64,000 bases of DNA from NCBI GenBank assembly GCA_019096195.1, contig JAGTXK010000060.1, positions 62,001 through 126,000 on the forward strand, in the 5' to 3' direction. Below the pieces are notes generated by a model. That model did no database searches and was not told the origin of the DNA. It saw only the letters and a list, made by a program, of their open reading frames with translations. The position numbers were made by a program, and so were the translations under genes. This DNA comes from Boletus sp. NGJ. Taxonomy: Eukaryota > Basidiomycota > Agaricomycetes > Boletales > Boletaceae. Shown here piece by piece: positions 1,460 to 53,213 of this stretch (position 1 is its first letter; every line of letters begins with the position of its first letter).

Positions 1460-1533
1460 CAACCGTTTGCAAAGCGATGCGGAAAACATATTTGAGAATT
1501 TGACTCGTCGGAAACTGCCAGAGTAGGACCCCG
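1460..1533 (+). repeat. Left terminal inverted repeat of the mariner-type element
   Basis: 74 bp, matching the reverse complement of 2418-2491 at 67 of 74 positions. Outer flank is TA. Similarity stops sharply after ..GGACCCCG. Confidence 0.9.
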
Positions 1534-1859
1534 GTTGTGCCTAGCCTACATGTGCATGATTAGCTACTTGTGACTGACTGTGACCTGTACTGTATCCACT
1601 ATGCTGCTGCTGTCTCCAGCCTGTGAATCTGAGGAACTCCACATATTTACAATCTCCCTTACTGTCTATTCTCTCCTCAAGAAGAAGGCATCTACTAAGG
1701 GCAAAGTGTCAACATCAAAGGAAGAGAAGTCCATCAAAATCAAAGAACTGCAATTTTCCATCAGTGACAGCAACTCTGGGAGGATCAAGTAGTGTGCACC
1801 ACATATGAAATATTACTGGCCGTGGCAATGCTGTCCCCTGAGTGATCACCCACATGGGC

Positions 1860-2400
1860 AAGAAGATGTGCATCAGTCTTTTGCAGCTTTATCCACAAAG
1901 AGAAGCATATTCATGTCTGGCACTTCTGCTGCAATACGATTCATGTAAATGGCATGCAACTTGTCATTCTGCTCAGCAGCAGAGAAATATATCATTTTTC
2001 ATGTGAGCTGGAGGCGCTTCAGAGCACAGGAAGGAGTAGAGACCATTGCATATACATTGTGCTTCTCCCACAACTGGTGTTGGAGCTCATCAAGATAAAT
2101 TATATTGTGATGTAGATCCACATTTTGAATAAATAAAATATCTGCTGTGCTGAGGATGTGACAGCACCTGACAATGCAAGAGTATGTATGTGTGTTATAG
2201 ACGATGCTGAACCTTCTGTAGAAGTCAAGAGTCTTGTATACAAGTGTTTTCTTGATGCCAAGAAGCCCACATATCTCTTTTATGGTGTAGCCATCAAGAG
2301 AAAGGGCAGGAATGTGTGTTTTGGTGTCATTGGGCATGGTATGGATTGGCATGGTGGGGCTAGTGGTGGTCCAAGTCAGCACAGTGCGTGACAGAGCCAT
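1860..2400 (-). pseudogene. Transposase remnant (HTH plus start of DDE domain)
   Basis: An open frame of 133 codons (2400-1999) reads a helix-turn-helix region with DGYTIKEICGLLGIKKTLVY and then YLDELQHQLWEKHNVY, both typical of IS630/mariner transposases in basidiomycetes. Just past its stop the same frame reads SAAEQNDKLHAIYMNRIAAE and MLLFVDKAAKD. This corresponds to the block around the first catalytic Asp, usually (I/V)DEAAKDERT, with E changed to K here. After that stops appear and no second or third catalytic acidic residue is seen. This is a non-functional remnant of a plain DNA transposon. Confidence 0.8.
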
Positions 2401-2417
2401 CTTGGCTTGGATGAGTT

Positions 2418-2491
2418 CGGGGTCCTACCCCGGCAGTTTCCGACAAGTTGAATTCTCAAATGTGTTTTCCGCATCGCTTTGCAAACGGCTG
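2418..2491 (-). repeat. Right terminal inverted repeat of the mariner-type element
   Basis: 74 bp, partner of 1460-1533, followed by TA. The transposase start codon lies 17 bases inside it. Confidence 0.9.
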
Positions 2492-2493
2492 TA

Positions 2494-3663
2494 ACTATTC
2501 CTCATTCTTTGAGTCAGCATCAGACGTTTGAGCTGAGACACTCTCACTGTACTAGTCACTGATCTGCGAAGCGAAGCCGAGGGTGAACAAGTGAAAGAGC
2601 ACTAGAGTTGCAGCCGACCACAAATTTCGAAGGGCAGGCTGAGCGATTCATGTGCATGAAGTGCAGTCTGAACTTTGAAGCGAGGTCCAAATCATGTCCG
2701 CGAAAATATCACGGACCCATTTACATAGTCTGTGGAAGTCAGACAATTCCTCGCATCCAGTCAGCATCTGAACTCCATACGAGACGTGGTTGCCCTGTAT
2801 CTCCGTCACGGACTCCTTCTGTGCCTTCAAATTGGTGGGTTGCGCCGTCACCGAGGGGCGGCCGCGCGACCCAAGCGTTTCTCGGCAACCTTTGTAATTC
2901 ACTCGACAACATGTGGCCTGTAGATTCAGCGTGGTAATGTCAGTACTCCGACACTGAGCAGACACTCTCTTCTTTCCAGACCAACAGGTAACTAGACTGT
3001 ATATCTCTCAAAGCTCAGTCTGGCCAACATGCAAAATTGCGGTTGGCTGTCTTTGGAGGACAAGTCACGAGAAGCAACGCTGCAAACACGTTTCTACCTG
3101 CAGTCGTGAATCAGCGTGGATATCATGCCTCAGCCCAAGATCCTGGTTGACCTCTAAACCATGCAAGGCCTTCCAACTTTCGAGTCTGAGCCGCTTCAAT
3201 CCTCGCCGTTAGCAGCACACGCTCTTAGTGCTGTGGCGACCGCTTCTGTCTTAATAGCGAGCATATCTATGCCTGCTTCTCGTCACCAAACCATCTCGGT
3301 GCGCATTCATCTCTCCCCATGTCGTCCTTCGGGCCTCATCAACTCAACCGCAAGCTGGTCGAAATGCTTCCCTTTGCCTCTTCCCTGTGCATTCTCGCCG
3401 CTCTCGCCACCGGTTCCTTCGCCCTGCAAAGTGGCGCCAATATTTCTGCTTCCACTGATGTCAGCAAATCTAGGATGTACTCCAGCGCCATTTCAAGCAT
3501 TATTGCTGCGGTCACCCCGATGCTGGCACTCATTTATTTCTGTCCGTTATACTTGTTGTACCGACACTCCAGACGCCATCCAAGAACGCTCAACAAGGTA
3601 TCTGGAATTCGTATTCAGCAGTATGGTCCACGTAAGTCTAGGAGCCGTTCAACGGCTCCGCTC
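2494..3663. other. Intergenic, no supported gene
   Basis: About 1.2 kb. Several open frames exist (for example 3161-3697 plus, 2648-2965 minus). The 3319-3600 stretch encodes a hydrophobic segment (AISSIIAAVTPMLALIYFCP) followed by basic residues, so part of it might be transcribed 5' sequence of the MARVEL-like gene or a separate small membrane protein. I could not join it to anything conserved. Confidence 0.35.
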
Positions 3664-4468
3664 ATGGCGATGGCCTTGTGGCTTACACGTGCTATAGTTA
3701 TCTATATTTTTCTGCTGTTCAGCAGCTTAGCACAGGTTCATTCATTCACATTGGTGTCTTGGATCACTAAATAACTGCATTGCGAAATATAGGTTGCCGA
3801 TGCGACTTGGATTTTATTACAGTACAAGTACAATAACAACGCACCTGATCTAGCGACACGTACAGGAGTGCGTTTCCTTCTGTAAGTACATTCCGCTACA
3901 ACACGTTCCCTTGTTGACATTGTGCAGGTTTGCAGGATGTTGGACCACCGTCACGTCTGGAACGTATACCCTTTTCTTCCTTGACCCGCTCTGGTCACGA
4001 CGTCCGATTGCATCGATTGGCACGCAAGCAGTATGGGTGCTCGTAACGTGGGTCTTCTGGGTAGCAGGCACCGGGGTGCTCAACAAATCCCTTCCCTCGC
4101 TATTCATGAATAATTCATGCGAAGGAGTCGTCTACTGCGGGCAGTTGCAAGCACTGTTCGGTGAGTGTACTGTTAGTGCCTGTAGATACCGCCGCTGACC
4201 ACCCGCGCAGCACTCTCGGTTATCGAAATGTTGGTATTTGACGAAAACCGAGTGTTTGCTATTCTGACTTGAGCAACCTGGCAGACTTACTTTAACATTT
4301 GGCATGATGGTTATGACATGGCTGGTGTGGAGGTCTGCGCGGTACGTCCGTCAACCAGTGGTGATCAGAGTACCCCCAATATGACACGGTATTGGATGCG
4401 TCGGGGAGTAGGCGGTAGACAAATCTGAATTGTGCAGGCATGGTGCAATATTGTCGAACTCACGTTGA
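3664..4468 (+). CDS. MARVEL-like four-helix membrane protein
   Basis: Predicted exons 3664-3735, 3793-3881, 3928-4160, 4211-4233, 4274-4341 and 4438-4468 give 171 residues in frame. Order: helix 1 (IVIYIFLLFSSLAQVADATW), a short loop with YKYNNNAP and TRTGVRFLLFAGCWT entering helix 2, helix 3 (AVWVLVTWVFWVAGTGVL), a Cys-containing outer loop (NSCEGVVYCGQLQALFA), and helix 4 (LTLTFGMMVMTWLVW). Length, four helices and the C-G-(Q/H)-L-x-A-L element match small MARVEL-domain proteins common in Agaricomycetes, whose function is unknown. They are thought to sit in membrane microdomains. The acceptor at 4274 keeps the frame, but the alternative at 4285 cannot be excluded. The start could lie further upstream. 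Confidence 0.65.
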
Positions 4469-4923: not shown

Positions 4924-5405
4924 ATGCCTTTCGCTCCTGGTTCGTTCAACACCTTTCCATCAAACTCGCGTTGATATCTCTGGCACAGGTGACGCTAACA
5001 AGGGTGCTGGACTCTTCAAGACGCGTTGTAAACAGTGCCATAACGTCGGCGCTGGTGAGCCCAATGTAGTCGGACCCAACTTGCACGGGTAAGAACGACT
5101 CGACTTCAGCTCGGAGTCTGTTTGCTAATTCGTACCCAGGCTTTTCGGTCGTAAAACTGGACAAGTGCCAGGCTACCAGTACACTGCTGCCAATGTGAAC
5201 AAGGGTGTTGTATGGGACGAGTCTACACTGTTCGACTATCTCGAGAACCCTAAAAAAGTACGTTGTTTTTCTTGCGGTATTTGGACCAATCATGGACATT
5301 TCCACCTCGGAGTACATTCCCGGTACCAAGATGGCCTTCGCGGGTCTCAAGAAGGAAAAGGACCGTAATGACCTCATCACCTGGCTCAAGGAAGCTGTAC
5401 GCTAA
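4924..5405 (+). CDS. CYC1: Cytochrome c
   Basis: Soluble electron carrier of the mitochondrial intermembrane space, passing electrons from complex III to cytochrome c oxidase. Exons 4924-4939, 4989-5088, 5140-5257 and 5313-5405 give 108 residues, the usual fungal length. The haem motif CKQCH (C-x2-C-H) is at residues 20-24, after [18 protein letters not shown]. Other signatures are [15 protein letters not shown], the [15 protein letters not shown] block with the axial Met ligand, and [11 protein letters not shown] at the end. The first exon is only 16 nt (MPFAP plus one base). Nothing is missing. Other respiratory genes in the window are COX4 and COQ4, not adjacent. Confidence 0.97.
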
Positions 5406-5740: not shown

Positions 5741-7335
5741 TTAGGCATCGTAAACGAGAAGATACGATGGTCTGATTGCATTCTCCGCGTAGCAGACTAG
5801 CTCGTCGTAGTTCAAGGAACCCCCGAGCGCAACTTCAGCAAGAACCTGAATCGTCCAGGCGTAGTTAGCACCCAAACGAGCAACCGAAGATGCCACGAAG
5901 ACACACCGAATCATAGCCTGGTGGAGGTGCGGTCAGCTTTGAGTTGTCCTGCGTCATCTTATATCCTTTCCCAACGACAACTTTGTTAAGAAGTATCGCC
6001 TTCTGCCTCGAAGGCTTGACGTTGCTTGAGTAGTCGTTGGATTTCGAAGAGGTCGAGGACGTGTAGATGCCCGCACCGAACCTGACATCCTTCACGGTCA
6101 TCACGCTGTTCGTCACAGGAAACCAGTCACTTGCCTGCCCCAACCAGTCTTCTTGCCGAAGAGATTCAAACTGTACGATGTACGGATGATACCACAGAGA
6201 GAGCACGATGTCGACGAGCAGAGGGTGCTGTTCCCGCTATCCCCAAGAAGACATTCCCTCGTCGTTCCGTGCCAACGACGGTTTTCGTTTCCAGGAGACC
6301 GTCCGGCAGCTACAAATTTGCCTCGAATCTCGACAGACGTCCTGTCGGTGGTCATGAGTAAGACGAGAAGTGTGTATGGATAGCAGAATCGTCACCCACC
6401 GATATGCTTCGTATTTCGCAATAGAAGTAGGGTGTCCAATGACTTTGTACACTCGGCGTACGGTTGGACAAGGTGTCTGGTGCCGCCACGAGGCCTTGAA
6501 TTGGTCGGCAACTGCGCACTATCAGACATCTGAGCACTGACGAAGTTACTATAGCATACCGCTCTTGAAAGTGTTATGCGCATTGTGGACTTCAAGTAGT
6601 AGTGGCGCGCTCTTTCCCGCCTTCGAAGTGCACGACTGACCGCAAAAGTGGCCCTTCTTGACGGCTTTCCCGCACAGCAGGCAGCCGTTCTTCAGTGGTC
6701 TGAAGCGCAGAGCCGTAAGTATTGCATTGACTAGATTGGATTGCGTGACTACGGACTTGGAGGGTGCTACGGGTGCTCCTCCTCCTGCAGCGCCTGTAGC
6801 CTTTGCTTGCTGCGCGCAAGTTTTGCTACAGAAGGAATGAGTCGTCTTCCCATCGTTGTACTTGGGCTGCTTGTGACAGTACTGCACGGTATTACATCAC
6901 CATCAAGGTTTACGGAAATTGACAACAAAGGCAACCTACGTCACACATGTTGGCTTTGGCACGAGGGACCTTGGCGCTCTTTCCCCTCGCAGAAGGGTTA
7001 CCGCCTGACGCAGTCTTGTTCTGAATCTTGGCAGCACATGTCTTGCCGCAGTAGGAGTGGGTCTTAGTTCCATCAAAGTATTTGGGTTTCACGTGACAAA
7101 CCTGCAAGGGGAATCAATGGAGGGTGCCACATGCGTTAGGAGAGTGGCATACATCACAAAGACTGGCTGCATTCGTCGTGGTCTGTCGACGGCTTGGGGC
7201 ATTGAACGCTGGCTGCGCTTGCGGGGGTTGAGCCTGAGCTGATTGTGCCTGGGCACTTTGCGCGGCTAGGTATTGACCAGCCATCGTACCAAGCACAGAG
7301 AGTGCAGCATGCATGGGTGGAAGTGCAGCACTCAT
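5741..7335 (-). CDS. PARP-domain ADP-ribosyltransferase with N-terminal Cys-rich fingers
   Basis: Exons 7335-7153, 7101-6940, 6881-6560, 6511-6400, 6341-6135, 6081-5907 and 5845-5741 give 421 residues. An Ala/Gln/Pro-rich start (LAAQSAQAQSAQAQ) is followed by three small fingers: CDVCHVKPKY..YCGKTCA, CDYCHKQPKY..FCSKTCA and CLLCGKAV..FCGQSCT. The PARP catalytic fold follows, with the NAD-binding His in RRWHGT, the Tyr in FGAGIYTSSTSSK, and an acidic residue in GGSLNYDELV giving an H-Y-E triad. PAGYDSV-type and RPSYLLVYD ends are also present. It would transfer ADP-ribose from NAD+ to protein or nucleic acid, and the target is unknown. The intron at 6134-6082 has a GC donor (gcaagt). A second PARP gene follows on the same strand and a NADAR gene sharing the finger lies beyond. 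Confidence 0.88.
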
Positions 7336-8374
7336 ATCGAATCAGATAGTGCCTGCTTTCTCTCCGAAGGAAGTTAATGTGTTGGTGTGGGTTGTCAGCA
7401 ATCGCTCGTCAAGAGCAACTCAAGTGTGCGGATAAGACAAGAAGGATGGTTGTTGATGCACTGGGCAGAAGGGATGTTTTATAGCCATAGGACGAGCACG
7501 TAGCGCGGCGTGATAACTGCTCGAGCAATGCGATTAGCGCGTGTTCTCCGCGAGGGTTGGATAAACTTCGTGGTTGGGGAGTTTCTCATTTTTGCCGCCA
7601 TTGTTCGCAGTGTGGCTGGATGGAGTCTGTGTTTGTAGTTGCCGAGGTAAAGCCCGCCTCGACCTCGGCACAAGGCAGCCGCACCTCGCGCATGGCAATA
7701 ATGAACACGTGCAAGTATCAGTACGCTTGGATCCGGGACTGCATTCTTGACCACACGAGAGTGTAGTAATGGAGACGGTGGATTTGTGGACAACACAGCA
7801 TCTCTGTGCTACCGGCTAAGCTAGATGCGATGCAGCGTGTACCGACAATCGGCAGCTGCAATGGTGGTAGCAAAGGGTTTAGTACTCACATTCTACTTCA
7901 TCATTTCAATTTTCAAGCCTCAAGGTCTGGAGGGAATTGTCGAATGTTCAAAAAATCAGTATACTTCTAACGCTGTAAAAAAGATAGCCACACAACTTGG
8001 CTTTTACAAGGGTGTGTTAAGAACAAGTAGAGAAGGCGTAACTTGGATGTTTGTCACACGACATTGACTCGTCACACTTTCGATGAGATGGTTCCGAGTT
8101 GAACGTTGAACGTTGAACGTTTGAACCATCATCTCAGAAAACTGGCTGCATGAGCTAGTACGCGATGTTCGGACATTAGATCCTTGATATGCAACTCACG
8201 CTTAGATATATACAGTGAGAATAAGGCACTAAAATACATGCGTCATAGTACAATCGTGGATATGGCTATCATACAAAGTATGTGGGTATCAATGCATAGA
8301 TAAACATCCGTATAAATACTCGTGCAATCGTTGCGACAGTAAGCAGCAGGGGCCGTGACCTTGATCTTCAGCGA
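7336..8374. other. Intergenic with a short tandem repeat
   Basis: About 1 kb between the two PARP genes. No conserved frame seen. Holds the GTTGAACG repeat at 8098-8125 and presumably the promoter of the first PARP gene. Confidence 0.5.
8098..8125 (+). repeat. Short tandem repeat of GTTGAACG
   Basis: Three near-perfect copies of an 8-base unit (gttgaacg, gttgaacg, gttgaacg-ttt) lie between the two PARP genes. No function can be assigned. Confidence 0.7.
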
Positions 8375-9546
8375 TCATGACACGAGAGGCGTCTTAAACA
8401 TCATCCGCACAAATGCCTTCAGATTTGGTGCACGTTTTGGCTTGTCCCCATACACGACCAGATACGCTGGACGCACACTGTCATTATCGTAGGTGACCGT
8501 TTCTAATTATTGATCATCATTCACGGACCTGGCAAACTGCGTACGTGACCCGACGAACCTTCATAATTCAAGTCCCACCCAATTTCTCCAGCGATCTGTA
8601 AAAAAGAAAGGTCAGATAGATAATCGTGAGGGGCACCATCCCATACCGAGTCGTATCCAGGCGGTGGTGCGATTAGGTCGGGAGCATTTCGATATCTCTT
8701 GTAGGGCTTTCCTACAGCAACGCGACTGAGAATCATTACTCGCAGACAGGCACTTTCAGAGAGACTGGAGATATAATCATCTGCCTCTGTTATGTATAAG
8801 CACCATAGTTAGCGCTAGCAGTAAACCCAGAGGACATACTCGAGGAGCAAGATGTGGTATAGATGCCGTGTCCGAATCTGAACCGCCATCAAAATATACC
8901 TTTTCCAAACGTAATTTCACATACCGCTTGAACGAATTCTTTGAACCTGGTAGGTACATGAGAGCAGGTGAAGAGAAGCAAGTGAATAAACTTACCACAC
9001 TTGCTCACATCAAATGAGCTGCGCAGGATGGAGCATAGATAGCATTGTTTGAGACCACAGAGGAGCACACTGGCTGAAGACTCCCCTAATAGACATGCAC
9101 GGTTAGTACCGTGGAAAAGGAGTTTCTCGTTTCCTCGCTTGTCTCTAGCTTTGAGAGTGGCCTGGACTTGGCCCCTGCAATATATTAGGGATAGGAGTTC
9201 GCCGATGGGAAGGAGAAGGTAACTATATACCTATAGTTGAGATAGGGTTCGAGCGCCGGTTCTGGCCAGAGAACCTTGAAGATATATTGGATGTCGGGTC
9301 TTGCTTTCTTACGATGACGCCACCCTTTGACGAAGAGTTGCTCTACTATATTTGTAACACACATCGACCTGGTTTTAAACTGGCTGAAAGCAAGGATATT
9401 CACACACCTTCAGCGAAGCTGGGGTTATCTCTATCGAGTCGGACCAGCCGATTTCGTCGACCAGTGGAGGTGTTCACTGGGTTATCTAGAGAAAATTCAT
9501 CGGGAGGCACCAGCTTTACCCATTCATCTTTGTAGGGAGAAACCAT
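8375..9546 (-). CDS. Second PARP-domain protein
   Basis: Exons 9546-9408, 9342-9231, 9174-8996, 8946-8925 (22 nt), 8877-8840, 8786-8647, 8595-8559 and 8502-8375 give 264 residues in frame. Catalytic features are FVKGWRHRKK, the His in LLFHGTNRACLLGE, the Tyr in RFGHGIYTTSCSSK, and the Glu in GWDLNYEET, so an H-Y-E triad is kept. The end reads RPAYLVVYGDKPKR, parallel to the upstream paralogue. A trace of the finger may remain just before the chosen start (FCTNRGLRF), so the gene probably begins further upstream. A 57-codon frame opening at 10012 with a good gtaagc donor is a candidate first exon. Same strand and family as the neighbour, with low identity, so an old tandem duplication. Confidence 0.8.
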
Positions 9547-10239
9547 GAACCTGAGACCGCGATTTGTGCAGAAGGAACGAACAAGAAGTGATGAGAGATT
9601 ATATGTTGCCCATGGCGCACCTCACCCCCGCTGCACCCCATCGGCACTGACAATGAGAGGGAACCGACCCGTGTCGTACAGGTTGCTTGTCACGACGTGG
9701 GCGATTAGTCAACCTTATCCGCGGTCATTGCGATACAGCACAATTGACGCGACGGGTGCCTCCATTTTGCAATTAATTTGCTCTGAGTTGATTCCACTCG
9801 TCCCACGTACATGAAGCGAGTCGTGTGCTTACCATGCAGTGTCCACGCCGTTGATGGCTGTAGCCTCTAGGCCGCCCGGAAAAGGCAAGTGAGTAAGATG
9901 GAGTAAGGCGCAGCCTGGCAAAACACGTTGCAGAGGTTGCACGTTGCATCTGAATGGCTTGTCAAGTGTGCGCAGTCTGGGAGAACGAATGAGCTGGGTC
10001 ATTCTGGTGCCTGCCTTCTTCTAGCTTATCCGGCTCCCCCTCGTGGCGAACCCCATCATTCCGAGATATTTGCATCGTGAAGGGTGTCAACTACATCGCC
10101 TTGCCGAAGCTTTATAACGGACTCTCTTCTCGTGAGCTGTAAGGAAACTGTCATCTGAACTTACACTGACTCGATCACCACCTCGTATATCTTCAAAATT
10201 CTCTATCTACTCGTTGCAATCTTCGTGATCACGTTCGGA

Positions 10240-11642
10240 ATGCTAGACGCCCGTCGGATCATGAAACTCTTTGGACTCGGAGGGCCAACAACACCTCAAT
10301 CTGCCTCTGGCAGACAAAAACAGAGGCCCGTGACACAGTACTATACTCCAAGGTGTGACGGGTTGTCTCCCGTATTTTCCAGCTGATGTATCATTCAGCA
10401 ACACCTACCCGAAACTGCCATCACCCAGTGCCTCTACCAGTGATAGCACAGAGTCGGACTATCCGCCTCTCACAGCTCCTGTTGCTCCCTTCGGGGCATC
10501 CATAGCTCCATTCCGAACATCAAAGACGGTGTCAATCCTGTTTTACGACAAGAACGACCCATTCTATGAATTCACCAACTTTTCGCCACATGAAGTTATA
10601 TACAAGGGGAAGAGGTATCCGACAAGCGAACACCTATTTCAAGCACTCAAGGTACGTGTTGTAAATTTCTCGATTGTAGGTGCTGACGCTGGGCCTTGCA
10701 CTCCGACCTCGATGGCTATTCGTTTAGTTCCTGGGTGACCATCCCGAGATCGCGGAGCGGGTTCGGAACTGTGGTGAAAGACCAATGTTGGCTTTTGATG
10801 AAGCTCATCGGTACCAGAAATGGGTGCGCTCGGATTGGAGGCAAGTAAACATCCAGAAGGTACCGACAATTCTCTTGAGTGCATGCTTTCTGAACAAACC
10901 GGGTTCCATCGTGCAAACTTAGATGGAAATTGCTCTTCGCCTCAAATTTACTCAACATCCCGACCTTAAAGCGTTACTTCTAGGAACAGGTGACGCTGAC
11001 CTCGTTGAGGTGAGAGGAGTCTCATCGTTTCGTCCCGCCTTGGATTCATCTACTTTAGGATTCGCCGCGTGACTATTTCTGGGGAACCGGCGCTGATCGC
11101 TCTGGCCGCAATGAACTTGGAAAAGCCCTCGTAAGGCTTCGGGAGGAGCTACGCCAAGAACGGGATAACCCATCCCATATTCCCACTGCCCAACGAGACA
11201 GTACTCGTTTATCAGTTCAAGATCTTACTTCCCTCGTGCCCACTCAACCGATCTCCATTATGGATGCGCAGCGTCTCTCTGTTGCGCCCATTCTACCGTC
11301 TGGGAGCGGATTCGCCAGCCCACAGATACATTTATCTCAGGGCGGTGGACTTTGTGAGGTATGATCGAGTAACCTGCCCAAAGCAACACGTAACCTGATC
11401 GATGGTCAATTCAGTTCTGTCAAGTAAGACCCAAGTTCCAAGGTCATCCTTACTGTGGACGAACATGCGCTGCGGAAGCGACCAAGATGTGCAGTGTGCG
11501 TACTTCAACCCACAAATCTTCATCCTACTGATATCTACGTATTTTACGTTCACTTTCGTAGGTTTGTCGCTCAAAACCCCGCTTCGGGAAGCATCCCTAC
11601 TGTTCAAGAACCTGCGCAGGCAGGGCGGGCGGAACAGTTTGA
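10240..11642 (+). CDS. NADAR-domain protein with two C-terminal Cys-rich fingers
   Basis: Exons 10240-10352, 10399-10651, 10728-10859, 10923-11009, 11059-11358, 11415-11495 and 11562-11642 give 348 residues. Residues about 1-90 are Ser/Pro-rich. The NADAR (YbiA/DUF1768) domain follows, with FYDKNDPFYEFTNFSPHEV, KRYPTSEHLFQALKFLGDHP, ERPMLAFDEAHRYQKWV and SPRDYFWGTGADRSGRNELG, so all usual motifs are present. The tail carries two fingers, CEFCQVRPKF..YCGRTCA and CSVCRSKPRF..YCSRTCA, of the same type as in the PARP gene at 5741-7335. NADAR proteins act on N-glycosidic bonds, and bacterial members remove ADP-ribose from guanine. Here the neighbouring PARP genes suggest a role in ADP-ribose turnover, which is inference. 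Divergent from the second PARP gene. Confidence 0.9.
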
Positions 11643-12115: not shown

Positions 12116-13562
12116 CTAGTGACATATCATCAGCCATGTGTAACTCAACTGGATCGGAATATACCCACTTCGGATAGGGCTCATAGCCCGGGTTGGACTG
12201 AGCGCTCTCATGGGGCTCCGCGACCTCGTGAGCATTTCAGAAACCGGATGTGGGTTCTCGTCTGGAATAAAGACGTGATCTTCATTCTCGCCATCCATGG
12301 CGGGATTAAGCGCAGGTGGCATAGGCGAGTTTGTGTGCGGGGTAAGCACAAAACGGTCCTGCATGACTGGAGAAGTAGGCGGAGAAAATAACATAGCGAT
12401 GCTGGGGCTAAAACGAGCGCCCACAGAGATAACCTTGCTCTCCTTCCTCATTCTTCGGCCACGGGAGGACATCGAGGTGTGCGTGGAAGGTGTCTCGTTA
12501 TGCATGGGAAGAGGAGCAGCTGACTTGCTTTGACTAGGATCAGAGACAAGGGCCTTAGCGACGGCTGTGAGATTAGGAACATGTTGAACTTGGGTACTCT
12601 CCTGTGGGGAAAAAATTGAAGGAAGGAGACCGCCAGCGGAAAGCTTTCTCGAGGGGGAATAGGTCGTCGAACGGCTCTGCTGCGTCCCGAGAGAGTATTT
12701 TGAACGAGAGTGACATCTCTTCGACGTTTTTGAATTGAACGAATTACACTCAATCGGGGGAGGTTTGCGCGCAGCGGAAGGAGAAGTATCGTTGCACTTG
12801 GCAGCCGTGTCCGCAATATTATGTATATGGAGATGGTATTTGAGGGCGTCGACGCCCGGCAGAATATCTGCACATCCCCGACGGCGACATTGGATCTTAT
12901 TTGTAGGCTTTAAACCGGCATCATCCATCATTACAAACGCCTGATTTTGCTATAGTTGTTACGTCAGTATACTGTGCCCAATAACTTACATGGGCATGAG
13001 GGCAACGCACAGCCTGGATGAGCGCTCGTTGATCGGTGCGACACATGTGGACTTTGGGTCTTGGTCTCCACATCATGTCCATAGTGGACTGGGCATCCGC
13101 CGACGTAGCAAGTGTGTACATCGATCGCTGGTCGTCAGGGATTTGAGGAAGTCCCTTCTCCTTAATTTCCGTCGTGGCAGATTCGGGCGCGTGGTCGCTA
13201 CCATGAACTGCACGATACCAAGCAATAATCTCTTGTGCTGTGCTGAGGGTGGAACTTTCGTCCGCGCTTTCTACTGATGTAACTTGAGTGGTGGAGATAT
13301 CCTTGTCGAACGCGGAGACGAATTCCCATCGTGAAGGATCATCGAAATCGCTGTTGTGTTCTTCGTGTGCGGCATCACTGCAGTCGATGGAGACGGCTTC
13401 TGGGACTTCCAGGGGGAATATGCCAGCAAAACGGCGAGTGTCGGGTTTCGAATGATGACCAGGGAGTAGAACAGTGTGGTTTTCGATAGCGATGGGGAGG
13501 TTGCGAGATATGACATCGGGATGCTTAGATTGCATACTGGGTGAGGAGATGTCGGACAGCAC
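12116..13562 (-). CDS. C2H2-like protein of unknown function
   Basis: Two exons, 13562-12990 and 12940-12116, give 465 residues. The intron joins CPHAH to AFVMMDDAGLKP in frame. The only recognisable element is a C2H2-like unit around residues 205-225, CRRRGCADILPGVDALKYHL followed by HIHN (C-x4-C-x12-H-x3-H). The rest is low-complexity, Ser/Pro-rich and probably disordered, with a repetitive SPMRALSPTRAMSPIRS stretch near the end that resembles kinase target sites. A single finger makes DNA binding doubtful, so protein or RNA binding is equally possible. It is divergent from COQ4 with about 400 bases between. Confidence 0.65.
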
Positions 13563-13964
13563 CCAGTATCAGTGGTCGCGATGACACGTCAGATAGTGGG
13601 ACCGGGTTTATATGGGTGAGACAACAACTGACGCTTTGACATTGTGGAATGAACGTCCACACTTGGTCGTCGAAGTTCCACGCTTAGACTCAACGAATCC
13701 TCGTGGCTCAGAGGCAATGCAAGGTAGCCATCCTGATTCAGCATGCGCCCAATATAATGCGCGCGCTTAATGCATAGTGATGCCCGTCCTTGACAAATCG
13801 GACTTGGCCGCGCGTGGTTTGAGACCGTCGGGGGTCGTCGTCGTCGTGGTCACAAACCAACAAAAGGATACGCCACACCCTAGGTAGGGTTAGGGTCTTA
13901 TCTGGCGCAAGCACAACCTAGGCCACGACCGTTAGTGCGAGGGTCCACATTCGTCTCTCTGGCA

Positions 13965-14833
13965 ATGTTGTCCACAATCATCGCACCCTCATACCGGCGT
14001 CCCGCACATTCCGGACCAGCTCATTGTTGCATCATTTCCCCGCTTACCCAGGTCACATTCCCCTCAACGCCTTTGAGAATGCTTTCCTCACCGTAGGCTC
14101 CGCCCTCACGGCATTTATGGACCCATGACGCGGCGGAAAGCCTCCCCCCAAGAATATTTCGCCATTGTTAACACGCTCTAGACATGGTGGCCGCACTGGG
14201 CGAAACTACCGCAGGGTCTACGTTGCCAAGGTTGCGTGACGCGATGCTTGACTCTCCAGAAGGACGTAGGATTCTCAAAAACCGCCCGCGCATTAACTCA
14301 AAGACCCTGGACTTACAAAGGTTAAAGGCACTTCCGAACGGGACGTTTGGAAGAGAATACACAAGATGGCTTGAAATATGCAACGTCACCCCTGATTCTC
14401 GAGAGCCGGTTCGCCCTCTCTTTTCCCTTGGTTGTCGTTACTGGGGACCTTCTCATATCACCAACAGGTTCGATATATTGGCGACCCAGAACTTGCCTAC
14501 GTCATGCAGCGCTATCGCGAAACTCACGATTTCTACCACGCTCTGTTTGCTCTCCGTGTCTCTGCTCTACCAGAACTCGCCCTCAAAGCATTTGAGTTTG
14601 CCAATCTAAGGTTGCCCATGACTGCCCTAGCACTTGGAGCCTCTGTCAGGATGGAGGCACATCGTGATAGCCTCTGGCACGAATTTGTACCATGGGGAAT
14701 CAGGTGTGGTGGAAGTGCCAGATGTCTTCTGACAGTCTACTGGGAAGAGAGATGGGACCAAGAAATTCAGGAGATAAAGAAAGAGCTCGGTCTGTGGGAT
14801 CCACCAGGCGGGTTGAGTATTCATTCTCCATGA
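13965..14833 (+). CDS. COQ4: Ubiquinone biosynthesis protein COQ4, 5' end disturbed
   Basis: COQ4 acts on the matrix side of the inner mitochondrial membrane as a scaffold and C1-decarboxylation factor of coenzyme Q synthesis. Clear blocks are FPAYPGHIPLNAFENAFLTV (from about 14045), MVAALGETTAG, LPRLRDAMLDSPEGRRIL, then after an intron (about 14411-14467) RYIGDPELAYVMQRYRETHD and the metal site HDFYH-x11-E, and the end LTVYWEERWDQEI. The 5' part does not join cleanly. The ATG at 13965 is in a different frame from the presequence-like RTLIPASRTFRTSS. The conserved ..ALTAFMDP frame meets a TGA, and no GT donor lies near the expected DPRR-GDMVAAL junction. The rest is open. It is either a decaying allele or has sequence errors. 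Confidence 0.82.
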
Positions 14834-49416: not shown

Positions 49417-51193
49417 CTATGCTTGCAATGGGATATCTCCGGGAGCAACCGCGGCATTCCGCTTCCCTGCATATGCTATCAAAGCCGCGCTGACGCCCTT
49501 CAACGCCTCGGCCATCAGGTCAAAGTCTTCCAGCTGGGGTAAGCGTCCACCTCAGATCCAGTCTGTTATCACTGGTTTAACAAAGTTCACCCACCTCATT
49601 CCAGATCTGTGCGCTACACCTAGCCCACCACTTCCCGTTGTGATAGAAAGGAGCTGCATAAGTGTCCCACTGTAACAAGATCGTATGCTGGAAGAAACTT
49701 TTCAGTTCTGCGGTCAGCTTTATTTCTCCCGGAATTGGTAGCGCTACATTGACCTTTGGACTGGATCCAGTGACGTGAGCAGCTAAACAAGCGAACGACT
49801 CACCATAGAAAGCGTATGTTCTCCCTCGGGGTCCATCACACTCGTCTTGAGCAGAATTGCGAGTCTCGCACCGCCGGCCATCGCTAAACGATGGGTATAT
49901 TCATTGATGCGACGCTCGCCACCAAGCCACTCGCGGAAATCAAGAGCTGGATTGCATTGGTGTCGGATTTCGTTAGGTTCCTTCAAAATCGCACGACTTA
50001 CCAGCCGTGACACTCAGCCAAGGGACCCAATCCACCGTCGACGTCCCTTGGGAACAATCGATATCAATGCTCTGCGATTAACTCTATCACATACATTCGA
50101 AAAGCTCCACAAAGCTCCTCCGCCCGCTGAAACCGGTGTCTAGTGGTGATTTGTAAACCCCTGGTGTGGGTATCGGTGACTTGATAATGTGTTGGTTTCT
50201 GAGTCAAAATGTCAACGCTCTCTGTTTGACACGAGGGCGAACTGGGACTGCGAACCTTGTTGGTACATAAAGAACAGTACACCCTCGCTTGGCAAACAAC
50301 CATTTGTGACAGTTCTATCGAAGCTTTTCAAGCTAGGCCCGGAGCGAGGACGTAATGCCATGCACTCACGGACACCCAGAAGTCAGGTTGGGCGACGGAT
50401 AAATCGATGTCCAACTCCTGGCCGATGGAATGTGCGGCGTCCACCACTGTCCATATACCAGCATCTTTGCAAATCGAAACCATTTGTTTCCAGGGCAAAG
50501 ACACACCCGGATTGGATGCAATAGTGTCGATAACAGCAACTATTTTTCCATGCCGGTTTCGTTCTGATCGTTCTGACACTAGCCTCTGAACGTGGGCCCG
50601 AAAATTCCGTGCGATATCGTCGCGGCTAATAGGAAAATGGAACTCAAAGGTTGATATAGTCGGGCGTGGGGGTGTGTCGCAAAGGTATTTGATCAGTTGT
50701 GCGACGGCAGCGTATGTGATCGACGCTGAACAGCCTGGTCAACATGCAAGTCAGCTCACGTTGAAAATCTGACACACTCTTTATGATAGTGTCTTCCTCG
50801 TGCCATTCAAAGTTCCGCAGAATGGTTGTGATGCCCATGGACGCATTCGTAACGAACACACACTCCGCTGGCTCTGCACCGATCATCTTCGCAACGCGTA
50901 CCCGAGCTCCCCTCATCTGTTCAGGGGCATACAGTCGGTAAAACTTGTCTGGATTGGCCTCGATATCTGCTGTGAGATCATCGCAAAACTTTCGAACGGG
51001 CGTCGGGAGAGCACCATAAGAGCCTGGGATGGTCAGACGTTTTGGTAAAGATTTATAGGAAAGACTTACCATTGTTCATGTTGGTATAGCTCGAGTCGAA
51101 TCCAAAGAATTTGCGTAACCCATGTCCAAACGGCGGTGGTGTCGTCTTGTAGAATGCCTCCAAATCCAAATATGCCGCGTCCTCCCTTGCCAT
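49417..51193 (-). CDS. Class-V aminotransferase-fold PLP enzyme, copy A
   Basis: Fold-type I PLP enzyme of the isopenicillin-N-epimerase-like group, which in fungi includes the hercynylcysteine sulfoxide lyase Egt2 of ergothioneine synthesis. Visible blocks are PPPFGHGLRKFFGFDSSYTN, GSYGALPTPVRKFCDDL, ANPDKFYRLYAPEQMRG, FVTNASMGITTILRNFEW, VDAAHSIGQELDIDL (cofactor Asp and His) and, after an intron, NCHKWLFAKRG with the Schiff-base Lys at 50303-50305. The C-terminal domain has ALDFREWLGGERRINEY and WWARCSAQIWNEVEDFDLM. The start at 51193 matches the length of copy B. Substrate is unknown; lyase or epimerase action on a sulfur amino acid is inference. Tandem paralogue of the next gene. Confidence 0.82.
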
Positions 51194-51462: not shown

Positions 51463-53213
51463 TCAATTGTTCTGTTGCGCTGCATATTCCTTCACTTTAG
51501 CACAAGCATCCTTCAGAGCGTTCGCCATTACATCAAAGTCGGATATCTACGAAATGCGATGAATAACGATGAAAGGGGGATAGATATTCTGCACAAACCT
51601 CATTCCAAATCTGCACGCTGCATCTAACCCACCATTTTTCGTTGTGTTTATATGCTAAGGCAGAGGTTTGCCATTGGAGTAACAAGGTGTCGAGAAAGAC
51701 CTTGTTAACCTCGTCGGATGCCTCGATTTCGCTGGGGATAGGCAGCTCCACGTTGACCTGTATGAATCAGCACATTACACGAGCACTGTGGGAAAAGTCG
51801 TTTTTCACTAACCATGTTGAATGTTAATTCGCCATCCGGGTCCATAACGTTGGTACCGAGACGTTCCGCAAGGTGTCTGCCTCCTACGAGGGCGAGGGCG
51901 TGGGTATACTCATTAATCTTGTGCTCTCCACCCAACCATTCCCTGAAATCAATCGCTGCCAGAATGTCAGGAACAAGTATCGTAAATTAATCAGCAAGTG
52001 TGTTGACCTGCGCTGATGCTCAGATGCGGGACGTAATCAATTGTTCCGGTCCCTAGAACAAATTGAACAATGTAGGCGTAGTTGAGGCAGTGTTGATACG
52101 CACAGTCAAAGAGCGTGACAAAGTCCTGAGGACCTTTGTAATCACCGTCGTGCGGAGAGTTATAGGTGACCGGCGTGGGGATCGGCGACTTGATAAGATG
52201 CTGGTTTCTAAAATTCCTCTGGCTGAGCTATCAGAAACCCATAAAATTCGAATTAATCAAACCTCTTTGGAATATAAAGAACGGCGCTTCCCCTCTTCGA
52301 AAAGAGCCATTTGTGGCAATTCTTTGGGAAACGAAGGCCGGTCACTACAACTCAAAGGGGATGTGGAGGAACATACCGAAACCCAAAAGTCGGGCCGTGC
52401 TTCAGACAGGTTGATGTCCAACTCTTGACCAATCGAGTGAGCACCATCTACGACGCTAATGACCCCCGCCTCTCGGCAAATTGCCACCATCTCTTTCCAG
52501 GGAAGCGAAACCCCGGGGAGAGAAACGATGGTATCAATGAGCGCGATAATCTTCCTTTTTCCTGTTTCTACGTCGCCCATTTTTGTCAGCTGCTTAATAT
52601 GCTCTTCGAAATCCTGAACAATCTGGGCGCGTTTCGTCGGGAATTGAAGGTTGAATGTCGACAAAGTGGGGTGAGGCGGAAGATCCGCGAGATACTTGAG
52701 CGTTTGGGACACAGAACCATATGTCGTCGTCGCTGAGTAGAAAAGTGAACCACAAAGCAATGTTGTAGACTCGATGGTCACACCTCCAACTAGAACGTCT
52801 CCCTCGTTGAAGACGAAATTGCGCAGGACGGTCGCGATGCCGTGCGATGTATTGTTCACGATGACACACTCGTCAGTTTCCGCACCAATGAGGTTGGCGA
52901 CGCGTTCTCGGACATGGGTCAGATAGTCGATGCAGTTGACCCTGATGAACTTGTCCGGATTGGACTCCGCTTCGTCGGTTAGCTTATCGCAGAAGGCACG
53001 GACAGGAAGTGGTAGCGACCCATAGGAGCCTGTACATAAGTGAATCAACAAAACTTATTGGCAGGCAACAGGGCACCTACCGTGGTTGAGGTTGATATAG
53101 TTGGGCTCGAATCCAAAAAGTGCACGTATATCGTGCCCAAATGGTGGCGGTGGTGTCTTGTAAAGTTTAGCGGCGACCACGGAGTGGTGAGGAAGTGACT
53201 TCGTGGCGGTCAT
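51463..53213 (-). CDS. Class-V aminotransferase-fold PLP enzyme, copy B
   Basis: Paralogue of the gene at 49417-51193 with the same exon layout. It starts MTATKSLPHHSVVAAKLYK, then PPPPFGHDIRALFGFEPNYI, LNHGSYGSLPLPVRAFCDKL, SNPDKFIRVNCIDYL, VNNTSHGIATVLRNFVF, VVDGAHSIGQELDINL, and NCHKWLFSKRG with the Lys at 52310-52312 after a 60-nt intron. The small domain has IDFREWLGGEHKINEYTHAL and NVELPIPSE, and the end is VKEYAAQQNN. The N-H-G-S-(F/Y)-G motif typical of Egt2-like proteins is intact here, while copy A reads N-N-G-S-Y-G. It shares a 190-bp divergent promoter with the GGCT-like gene. Confidence 0.84.

Follow-up and report, generated by a model that had tools for sequence, protein, structure and literature searches.

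The window analyzed here is a stretch of 64,000 nucleotides from the fungus Boletus sp. NGJ (contig JAGTXK010000060.1, positions 62,001–126,000, forward strand). It contains two genes on the same strand for proteins with a PARP catalytic domain, PARP-A and PARP-B, and a gene for a NADAR protein that diverges from the second of them. A finger-like unit is common to PARP-A and NADAR, with two good copies at the N terminus of PARP-A and two at the C terminus of NADAR, and each of the four copies is split by an intron at the same place. The locus may encode a matched writer and eraser of ADP-ribose that are brought to one target by these fingers. All positions below are those of the window.

The PARP and NADAR genes

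The window is rich in introns, whose shortness agrees with a fungal source. Splice sites were picked by eye, and the three gene models, which are based on the sequence only, were recomputed from the exon coordinates. The three frames are open and the splice sites are of the consensus type; the introns of PARP-A comprise one GC–AG and five GT–AG introns. From the stop codon of PARP-A to the stop codon of NADAR, the spliced models span positions 5741–11642 exactly, which is the span given in an earlier reading of the same DNA (here called the original prediction). The genes, their exons and their catalytic domains are as follows.

5741..7335, minus strand: PARP-A gene, 7 exons, 421 residues
7335-7153, 7101-6940, 6881-6560, 6511-6400, 6341-6135, 6081-5907, 5845-5741, minus strand: PARP-A exons
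5741..6434, minus strand: PARP-A catalytic domain, from residue 249, PF00644, with partial alignment to PARP4, PARP3 and the tankyrases
8375..9546, minus strand: PARP-B gene, 8 exons, 265 residues, no fingers seen
9546-9408, 9345-9231, 9174-8996, 8946-8925, 8877-8840, 8786-8647, 8595-8559, 8502-8375, minus strand: PARP-B exons
9547..10239, unstranded: intergenic region of 693 bp between the divergent start codons of PARP-B and NADAR
10240..11642, plus strand: NADAR gene, 7 exons, 348 residues
10240-10352, 10399-10651, 10728-10859, 10923-11009, 11059-11358, 11415-11495, 11562-11642, plus strand: NADAR exons
10541..11154, plus strand: NADAR domain, residues 86-227, PF08719, active-site residues E115, K122 and E195

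Both PARP proteins score above the Pfam cut-off of 26.7 bits for PF00644, PARP-A with 51.3 bits (expectation (E) value 1.3e-13) and PARP-B with 51.7 bits (E 1e-13). The catalytic triads are H284-Y335-E402 in PARP-A and H106-Y158-E224 in PARP-B. The tyrosine and the glutamate of PARP-A line up with those of PARP4, and the histidine of both triads is taken by us to be that of the HGT motif. By sequence, the nearest solved structures to PARP-A are PARP4, PARP3 and the tankyrases, the best of each having E values from 3.8e-7 to 4.7e-5. When PARP-A and PARP-B are compared by tblastn, 83 of 213 aligned residues are identical, and four intron positions, read against the protein alignment, are common to the two genes with equal phase. 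As judged from their sequences the two are paralogues, and because of this identity and these common introns the PARP models are supported and a gross error in them is unlikely.

A set of conserved cysteines, C-x10/11-C-x4-C-x2-C, is found between the catalytic histidine and tyrosine of both PARPs (6194–6253 and 9033–9095). In PARP-A it consists of C290, C301, C306 and C309, and the alignment shows its counterpart in PARP-B. Situated between the strands of the histidine and the tyrosine, the set is possibly a second metal site. Its position presumably differs from that of the zinc site of the tankyrases.

Among fungal PARPs, Clade 1 is defined by WGR and PARP regulatory domains and Clade 6A by a C-terminal UBCc domain. 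None of these three domains was listed by Pfam for PARP-A or PARP-B at E ≤ 10, and PARP-A ends directly after its catalytic domain. Neither protein thus belongs to Clade 1 or, with no UBC match, to Clade 6A. Fungi are said to encode PARPs of Clades 1 and 6 only, and Clade 6 PARPs are described as being without the catalytic glutamate (Citarelli 2010, PMC2964712; for this and most other papers cited, the statements are drawn from excerpts). PARP-A and PARP-B resemble the PARPs of both clades in having a PARP catalytic domain in a fungus, but they differ from Clade 6 in that the catalytic glutamate is retained. On sequence, they match neither of the two descriptions.

The NADAR protein matches PF08719 with 126.6 bits (E 1.4e-36) against a curated cut-off of 35.1. 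Only two solved sequences match it at E ≤ 1, Escherichia coli YbiA (2b3w, E 3.9e-29) and 8bau (E 1.2e-7). Its identity is 44% with an E. coli YbiA and 41% with a stretch of NADAR annotated as RibA. Residues E115, K122 and E195 fall in invariant columns of an alignment with four bacterial NADARs; a fifth, L005, was left out since it contains a stop codon. Counterparts of the three residues are discussed in PMC11543638, the correspondence being counted on the 8bau alignment. A glutamate at the last active-site position is the mark of the YbiA type (PMC11125620), and this glutamate, together with the E and K seven residues apart, places the protein in the YbiA subfamily of the NADAR superfamily.

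The original prediction had described two PARP genes on one strand with intact triads and, divergent from the second, a NADAR gene with its motifs present. The two matches to PF00644, the match to PF08719 and the residues named above bear this out. Because the start codons of PARP-B and NADAR are divergent and 693 bp apart, the region between them is possibly a shared promoter. A promoter scan of the region gave no match, the models of the scan being those of bacterial promoters only.

Finger units and their introns

The finger units and the introns that split them are listed here.

7036..7158, minus strand: PARP-A finger 1, CDVCHVKPKYFDGTKTHSYCGKTC, residues 60-83; intron 1 after CD, phase 0
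6816..6945, minus strand: PARP-A finger 2, CDYCHKQPKYNDGKTTHSFCSKTC, residues 114-137; intron 2 after CD, phase 0
6630..6683, minus strand: PARP-A possible third, degenerate finger, CLLCGKAVKKGHFCGQSC, residues 182-199, with a weak alignment to the NADAR fingers
11353..11468, plus strand: NADAR finger 1, CEFCQVRPKFQGHPYCGRTC, residues 294-313; intron 5 after CE, phase 0
11490..11615, plus strand: NADAR finger 2, CSVCRSKPRFGKHPYCSRTC, residues 321-340; intron 6 after CS, phase 0

In the original prediction the PARPs were taken to be finger-bearing, which holds for PARP-A; in PARP-B no fingers were seen. The finger pair of NADAR is an addition to that account.

Eight residues are invariant when the four good copies are aligned (C, C, P, H, C, T, C and A). 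In the hand alignment, the four pairings of a PARP-A finger with a NADAR finger have 14, 11, 9 and 10 identities over 24 positions, and the similarity outside the presumed metal ligands was equalled for each pairing by at most 1 in 100,000 shuffles. A half-motif derived from these units, H[PSTA][YF]C...C, was sought in all six frames of the 64 kb and occurs at the four finger sites and at one further site that crosses a stop codon. Searched against the window by tblastn (E up to 1), the PARP-A fingers match only each other and the tail of NADAR (E 6e-5), and for the NADAR tail the matches are confined to itself and finger 1 of PARP-A (E 0.003 and 0.30).

All four fingers are cut in phase 0 at the same point of the first cysteine pair, C-x/x-C, where the slash marks the intron: LCD/VC and MCD/YC in PARP-A, and LCE/FC and MCS/VC in NADAR. 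Around each site we enumerated the possible introns of the GT–AG (or GCAAGT) kind with lengths of 35 to 129 bases, retaining all those across which the reading frame stays open. The intron that keeps the finger was one of 5, one of 23, one of 17 and one of 19 such candidates, and it always fell at the C-x/x-C boundary. When six introns are placed at random in the NADAR frame, both finger boundaries are met with p ~3e-5, a rough value obtained under a uniform null, real introns being non-uniform. Exon 2 of PARP-A and exon 6 of NADAR are symmetric (0-0), and each has its two ends inside successive fingers, the form that duplicated or shuffled exons would be expected to take. The shuffle test and the intron placement led us to reject a chance likeness of unrelated cysteine-rich tails, and the simplest reading of these sequences is that the two finger pairs descend from one cassette.

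The weak Pfam matches of the fingers, all of them below the cut-offs, disagree between the two proteins. For the PARP-A fragment they are RPAP2_Rtr1 (E 0.0011), zf-FCS (E 0.0012) and zf-HIT (E 0.006), and for the NADAR fragment DZR_2 (E 0.0013), zf-CXXC (E 0.0049) and Fer4_11 (E 0.011). The assignment to a family is not settled. Neither fragment belongs to zf-FCS (PF06467) by score, as that of PARP-A reaches 19.1 bits against a cut-off of 22.4 and that of NADAR is unlisted. A profile of the fingers found no credible match among solved structures, the best being Mdm2 (E 0.067), with the Polyhomeotic FCS finger 2l8e at E 5.5; compared with PARP-A, 2l8e gave E 0.41. The present fingers have the layout CxxC...[FY]C[SG]xxC in common with FCS/MYM-type fingers (PF06467; Polyhomeotic), but they differ in having a conserved histidine before the third cysteine and a Pro-Lys/Arg-aromatic motif. 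In PARP-A the aromatic residue follows a spacer of 14 residues, within the range of 14 to 30 reported for FCS fingers; in NADAR the spacer is 10. For FCS fingers of the Polyhomeotic type, binding to RNA and DNA has been reported, and for others binding to proteins (PMC4047054).

PARP1-type DNA-binding fingers were considered for PARP-A and rejected, as Pfam gave no match to them. The fingers of PARP-A and NADAR would presumably bind zinc, and they may bind nucleic acid. The N-terminal 210 residues of PARP-A are strongly basic (27 K/R and 4 D/E), and are therefore compatible with nucleic-acid binding.

Related loci and surroundings

Two bacterial arrangements in which an ADP-ribosyltransferase (ART) gene adjoins a NADAR gene were compared with the locus. 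In the DarT1–NADAR (DarTG1) toxin–antitoxin system a transferase gene likewise adjoins the gene for a NADAR eraser. It differs in being bacterial, in having a DarT-family ART as the writer and in its BC4488-type NADAR antitoxin, which is reported to use an aspartate (D171 in E. coli C7). The writers here match PF00644, with no DarT match, and NADAR has Glu195 at this position, which sets the locus outside that system. Zinc is never mentioned in the paper on this system (PMC11543638). The YarT–YbiA pair of myxobacteria has a YbiA-type NADAR with the catalytic glutamate beside an ART. By description it is bacterial and YarT is a small Rhs-toxin-like (Rhs/Tre23-like) ART, whereas the writers here are PF00644 proteins; the words zinc, finger and fung are absent from the paper concerned (PMC11125620). 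The YbiA/RibA-linked riboflavin N-glycosidases (TIGR02464) are similar in having a NADAR domain, which scores over the cut-off here, but the present NADAR has the extra C-terminal finger pair in common with PARP-A. Among the matches listed in the open-licence literature, neither a fungal PARP–NADAR locus nor a finger-bearing NADAR was reported, and an earlier mention elsewhere is possible.

For bacteria, 512 NADAR loci were confirmed among at least 588 stretches, and the comparison covered the 80 best of them. None of these 80 contains a stretch similar to PARP-A or PARP-B at E ≤ 0.5, and none contains a credible finger, the weak matches having E values of 0.054 or worse. Among plasmids, tblastn matched NADAR to 38 records, none covering more than 80% of the query, and PARP-B to one record, annotated as a WGR-domain protein.

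The viral comparison comprised 41 NADAR loci. The PARP-A and PARP-B queries found no match in them at E ≤ 0.5. Fragments of bacterial PARPs matched two of the 41 at E ≤ 1e-3, L102 and L105, and in both a WGR-PARP gene lies 2.8 kb upstream of the NADAR gene on the same strand. The two are identical over the 2.5 kb compared (1501–4000) and therefore probably represent one virus; the large viral contig is probably that of a jumbo phage. Like the fungal locus, it has a PARP and a NADAR close together, here on one strand. It differs in being viral, in having four same-strand open reading frames (ORFs) of at least 80 residues between the two genes, and in the WGR domain of its PARP, which is found in neither fungal PARP. 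No credible finger was found in the viral NADAR loci, L102 and L105 included (matches of E 0.048 or worse). Near the WGR-PARP and NADAR genes, positions 580–5480 of L105 also encode DUF4326, a metallophosphatase and a fusion of an APS kinase with a nucleotidyltransferase.

Scans of viral contigs with whole NADAR and PARP-A, and of genome contigs with an alignment of the two PARPs (two patterns only), found no relatives. Proximity of a PARP and a NADAR thus occurs elsewhere but is rare in the sample, and the link through the fingers is so far found only at this locus.

In the window, the locus is flanked on the left by a spliced cytochrome c gene on the plus strand (about 4988–5404; PF00034, E 4.5e-10), which converges on PARP-A, and on the right by a Coq4 gene (14172–14830). 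These are possible synteny anchors. The ORFs at 12119–13568, between NADAR and Coq4, have no family label. The window has 129 ORFs of 100 residues or more; the family scan took 40 of them, and 24 of these 40 had no Pfam family at E ≤ 0.01. The others include transporters, a P450, a leucine-rich-repeat protein and aminotransferases. No further PARP, NADAR, NLR or known defence domain scored over its cut-off among the 40. An additional PARP or NADAR gene in the window was rejected, as tblastn of the three proteins against the 64 kb gave only the three genes at E ≤ 1. One ORF encodes a CCCH finger and matches a PARP12-type CCCH model below threshold (E 0.0035).

A DNA-transposon-like element lies at 1456–2495; its terminal inverted repeats of 78 nt are 91% complementary and 884 nt apart, and an ORF inside it (2002–2424, minus strand) has a sub-threshold match to HTH_23. 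Two neighbouring minus-strand stretches (50331–51075 and 52260–53054) match class V aminotransferases and are possibly tandem duplicates.

A candidate writer and eraser of ADP-ribose

We propose that the writing and the erasing of ADP-ribose are matched functions of this locus. Transfer of ADP-ribose from NAD+ onto a target would fall to PARP-A, and probably to PARP-B too, and NADAR would cleave the N-glycosidic bond of the ADP-ribose and so reset the target. The finger cassette, at the N terminus of the one enzyme and the C terminus of the other, would bring both to one place, and a nucleic acid or nucleoprotein is the likeliest such place. We put this proposal forward tentatively, at slightly less than an even chance, on the strength of the sequence features described. 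PARP-A and NADAR would on this proposal be active enzymes, expressed together and acting on the same substrate. PARP-B, which is fingerless, may either act as a partner to PARP-A or simply be a duplicate that has diverged.

In the original prediction the three genes formed one functional unit. For PARP-A and NADAR this has gained independent support, since the intron-split cassette common to both argues for a unit better than proximity alone. The chemistry that was suggested, nucleic-acid ADP-ribosylation with its repair or NAD-linked defence, is plausible as a proposal. NADARs from bacteria, phage and an oomycete are reported to strip ADP-ribose from guanine (PMC11543638, PMC11125620, PMC11833690), and this reversal has been described on DNA, including by the oomycete enzyme, and on RNA (PMC11543638, PMC11833690). 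A bolder form of the proposal, which we regard as rather unlikely, is a eukaryotic system of reversible nucleic-acid ADP-ribosylation. In it, the finger-bearing PARP would mark DNA or RNA at its bases, guanine probably being the one modified, and NADAR, with its exon-shuffled finger pair, would erase the marks at these sites, in regulation or in defence that separates self from non-self.

Several observations weigh against a matched writer and eraser. Human PARP10 is reported to mark uracil in RNA, a mark that the NADARs tested leave in place; no other human PARP tested showed activity on the RNA oligonucleotides, which did not include a guanine homopolymer, since none could be prepared (PMC13036486). 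In the excerpts of PMC11543638, PMC11125620 and PMC11833690, no PARP-type enzyme that modifies guanine bases is reported. Two phosphate-contacting residues of the oomycete NADAR, K75 and R79 (numbering of PMC11543638), are not clearly kept, being F and H here in a phmmer alignment read by eye. NADAR also passes TIGR02464, the model for an N-glycosidase of riboflavin intermediates, with 110.8 bits against a cut-off of 73.7. The two NADAR finger boundaries were chosen post hoc from six introns, and five of these six are in phase 0. Agreement in phase alone is for this reason weak, and most of the weight of the intron evidence lies in the exact match of the codon.

The bacterial genomes count on the same side. 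We checked for PF00644 in 78 distinct bacterial genomes with YbiA-like NADARs, which account for 79 of the 80 loci compared, L063 being left out. It was found at E ≤ 1e-3 in four of them (three over the cut-off), and in none close to the NADAR gene. These four genomes gave eight NADAR and seven PARP matches, and the sole pair on the same contig is about 102 kb apart; three of the seven PARP contigs are shorter than 10 kb, so that neighbours past their ends are invisible. PF00644 was not found in a subset of 29 genomes or in 14 control genomes, which does not prove its absence. Because PF00644 was found in only 4 of 78 genomes and never near NADAR, pairing of a PARP with a NADAR is no general bacterial habit. 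Within the locus itself, PARP-B is without fingers, and the link between PARP-A and NADAR would be weaker if the fingers, as is possible, were a module found widely in fungi.

The fingers might instead be a mobile fungal localisation module (nuclear or RNA-granule, for example), acquired separately by the two genes or by local exon shuffling. It would place two enzymes with different substrates in a common compartment, where PARP-A modifies proteins and NADAR clears soluble or adventitious N-ribosides. Known PARPs modify mainly proteins. The symmetric 0-0 exons are what shuffled modules would show, and FCS-type fingers, which are among the weak matches (PF06467, E 0.0012), can bind proteins, RNA or DNA (PMC4047054). 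A mobile module sits less well with the confinement of the intact half-motif in the 64 kb to PARP-A and NADAR, whose start codons are about 3 kb apart, or with the complementary chemistries of a writer and an eraser. We consider this explanation unlikely, though far from negligible.

NADAR could also be an ordinary damage-control N-glycosidase of riboflavin biosynthesis, next to two PARP genes by coincidence. Its score with TIGR02464 and its identity to YbiA and to the RibA-annotated stretch would fit such a role, but the model does not discriminate. It is also passed by each of the five other NADARs tried, whose scores range from 104.8 to 151.3 bits and which include an E. coli ybiA; for E. 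coli YbiA, hydrolysis of guanine-ADP-ribose has been reported (PMC11125620). The anti-phage NADAR model NF053876 is equally undiscriminating (79.4 bits here, 61.3 to 79.3 in the five others, cut-off 240). Because all NADARs tried score alike, we rejected both models as evidence either way on the job of this NADAR. A metabolite hydrolase has no evident need for a finger pair, and the pair here is held in common with the neighbouring PARP; we find the riboflavin role improbable.

A poison–antidote pair like DarT1–NADAR or YarT–YbiA, in which PARP-A would be a conditional toxin or NAD consumer directed at viruses, mobile elements or foreign nuclei and NADAR would protect the cell, has bacterial and phage precedents, since YbiA-type NADARs can act as antitoxins of ARTs (PMC11125620) and several T4-like phages express NADARs as early genes alongside ARTs (PMC9503650), but it is highly doubtful here: the PARPs match PF00644 and no DarT family, the likeness to NF053876 is generic, the scanned ORFs include a leucine-rich-repeat protein but no NLR or known defence domain over its cut-off, the flanking cytochrome c and Coq4 genes are housekeeping genes, and a ratio of two PARPs to one NADAR is not what a toxin–antitoxin pair usually shows.

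The physiological roles of NADARs across eukaryotes are said to remain unclear (PMC11125620). ART–NADAR pairs are known from bacteria and phages, and a eukaryotic version with PARP-type writers and a common targeting module would be new. The fungal PARP lineage found here would belong to neither of the two fungal clades of the 2010 survey (PMC2964712). With a NADAR gene that is linked to a PARP gene and has its presumed targeting module in common with it, a eukaryotic NADAR gains a candidate writer, and the question of what such a NADAR does becomes a two-protein experiment.

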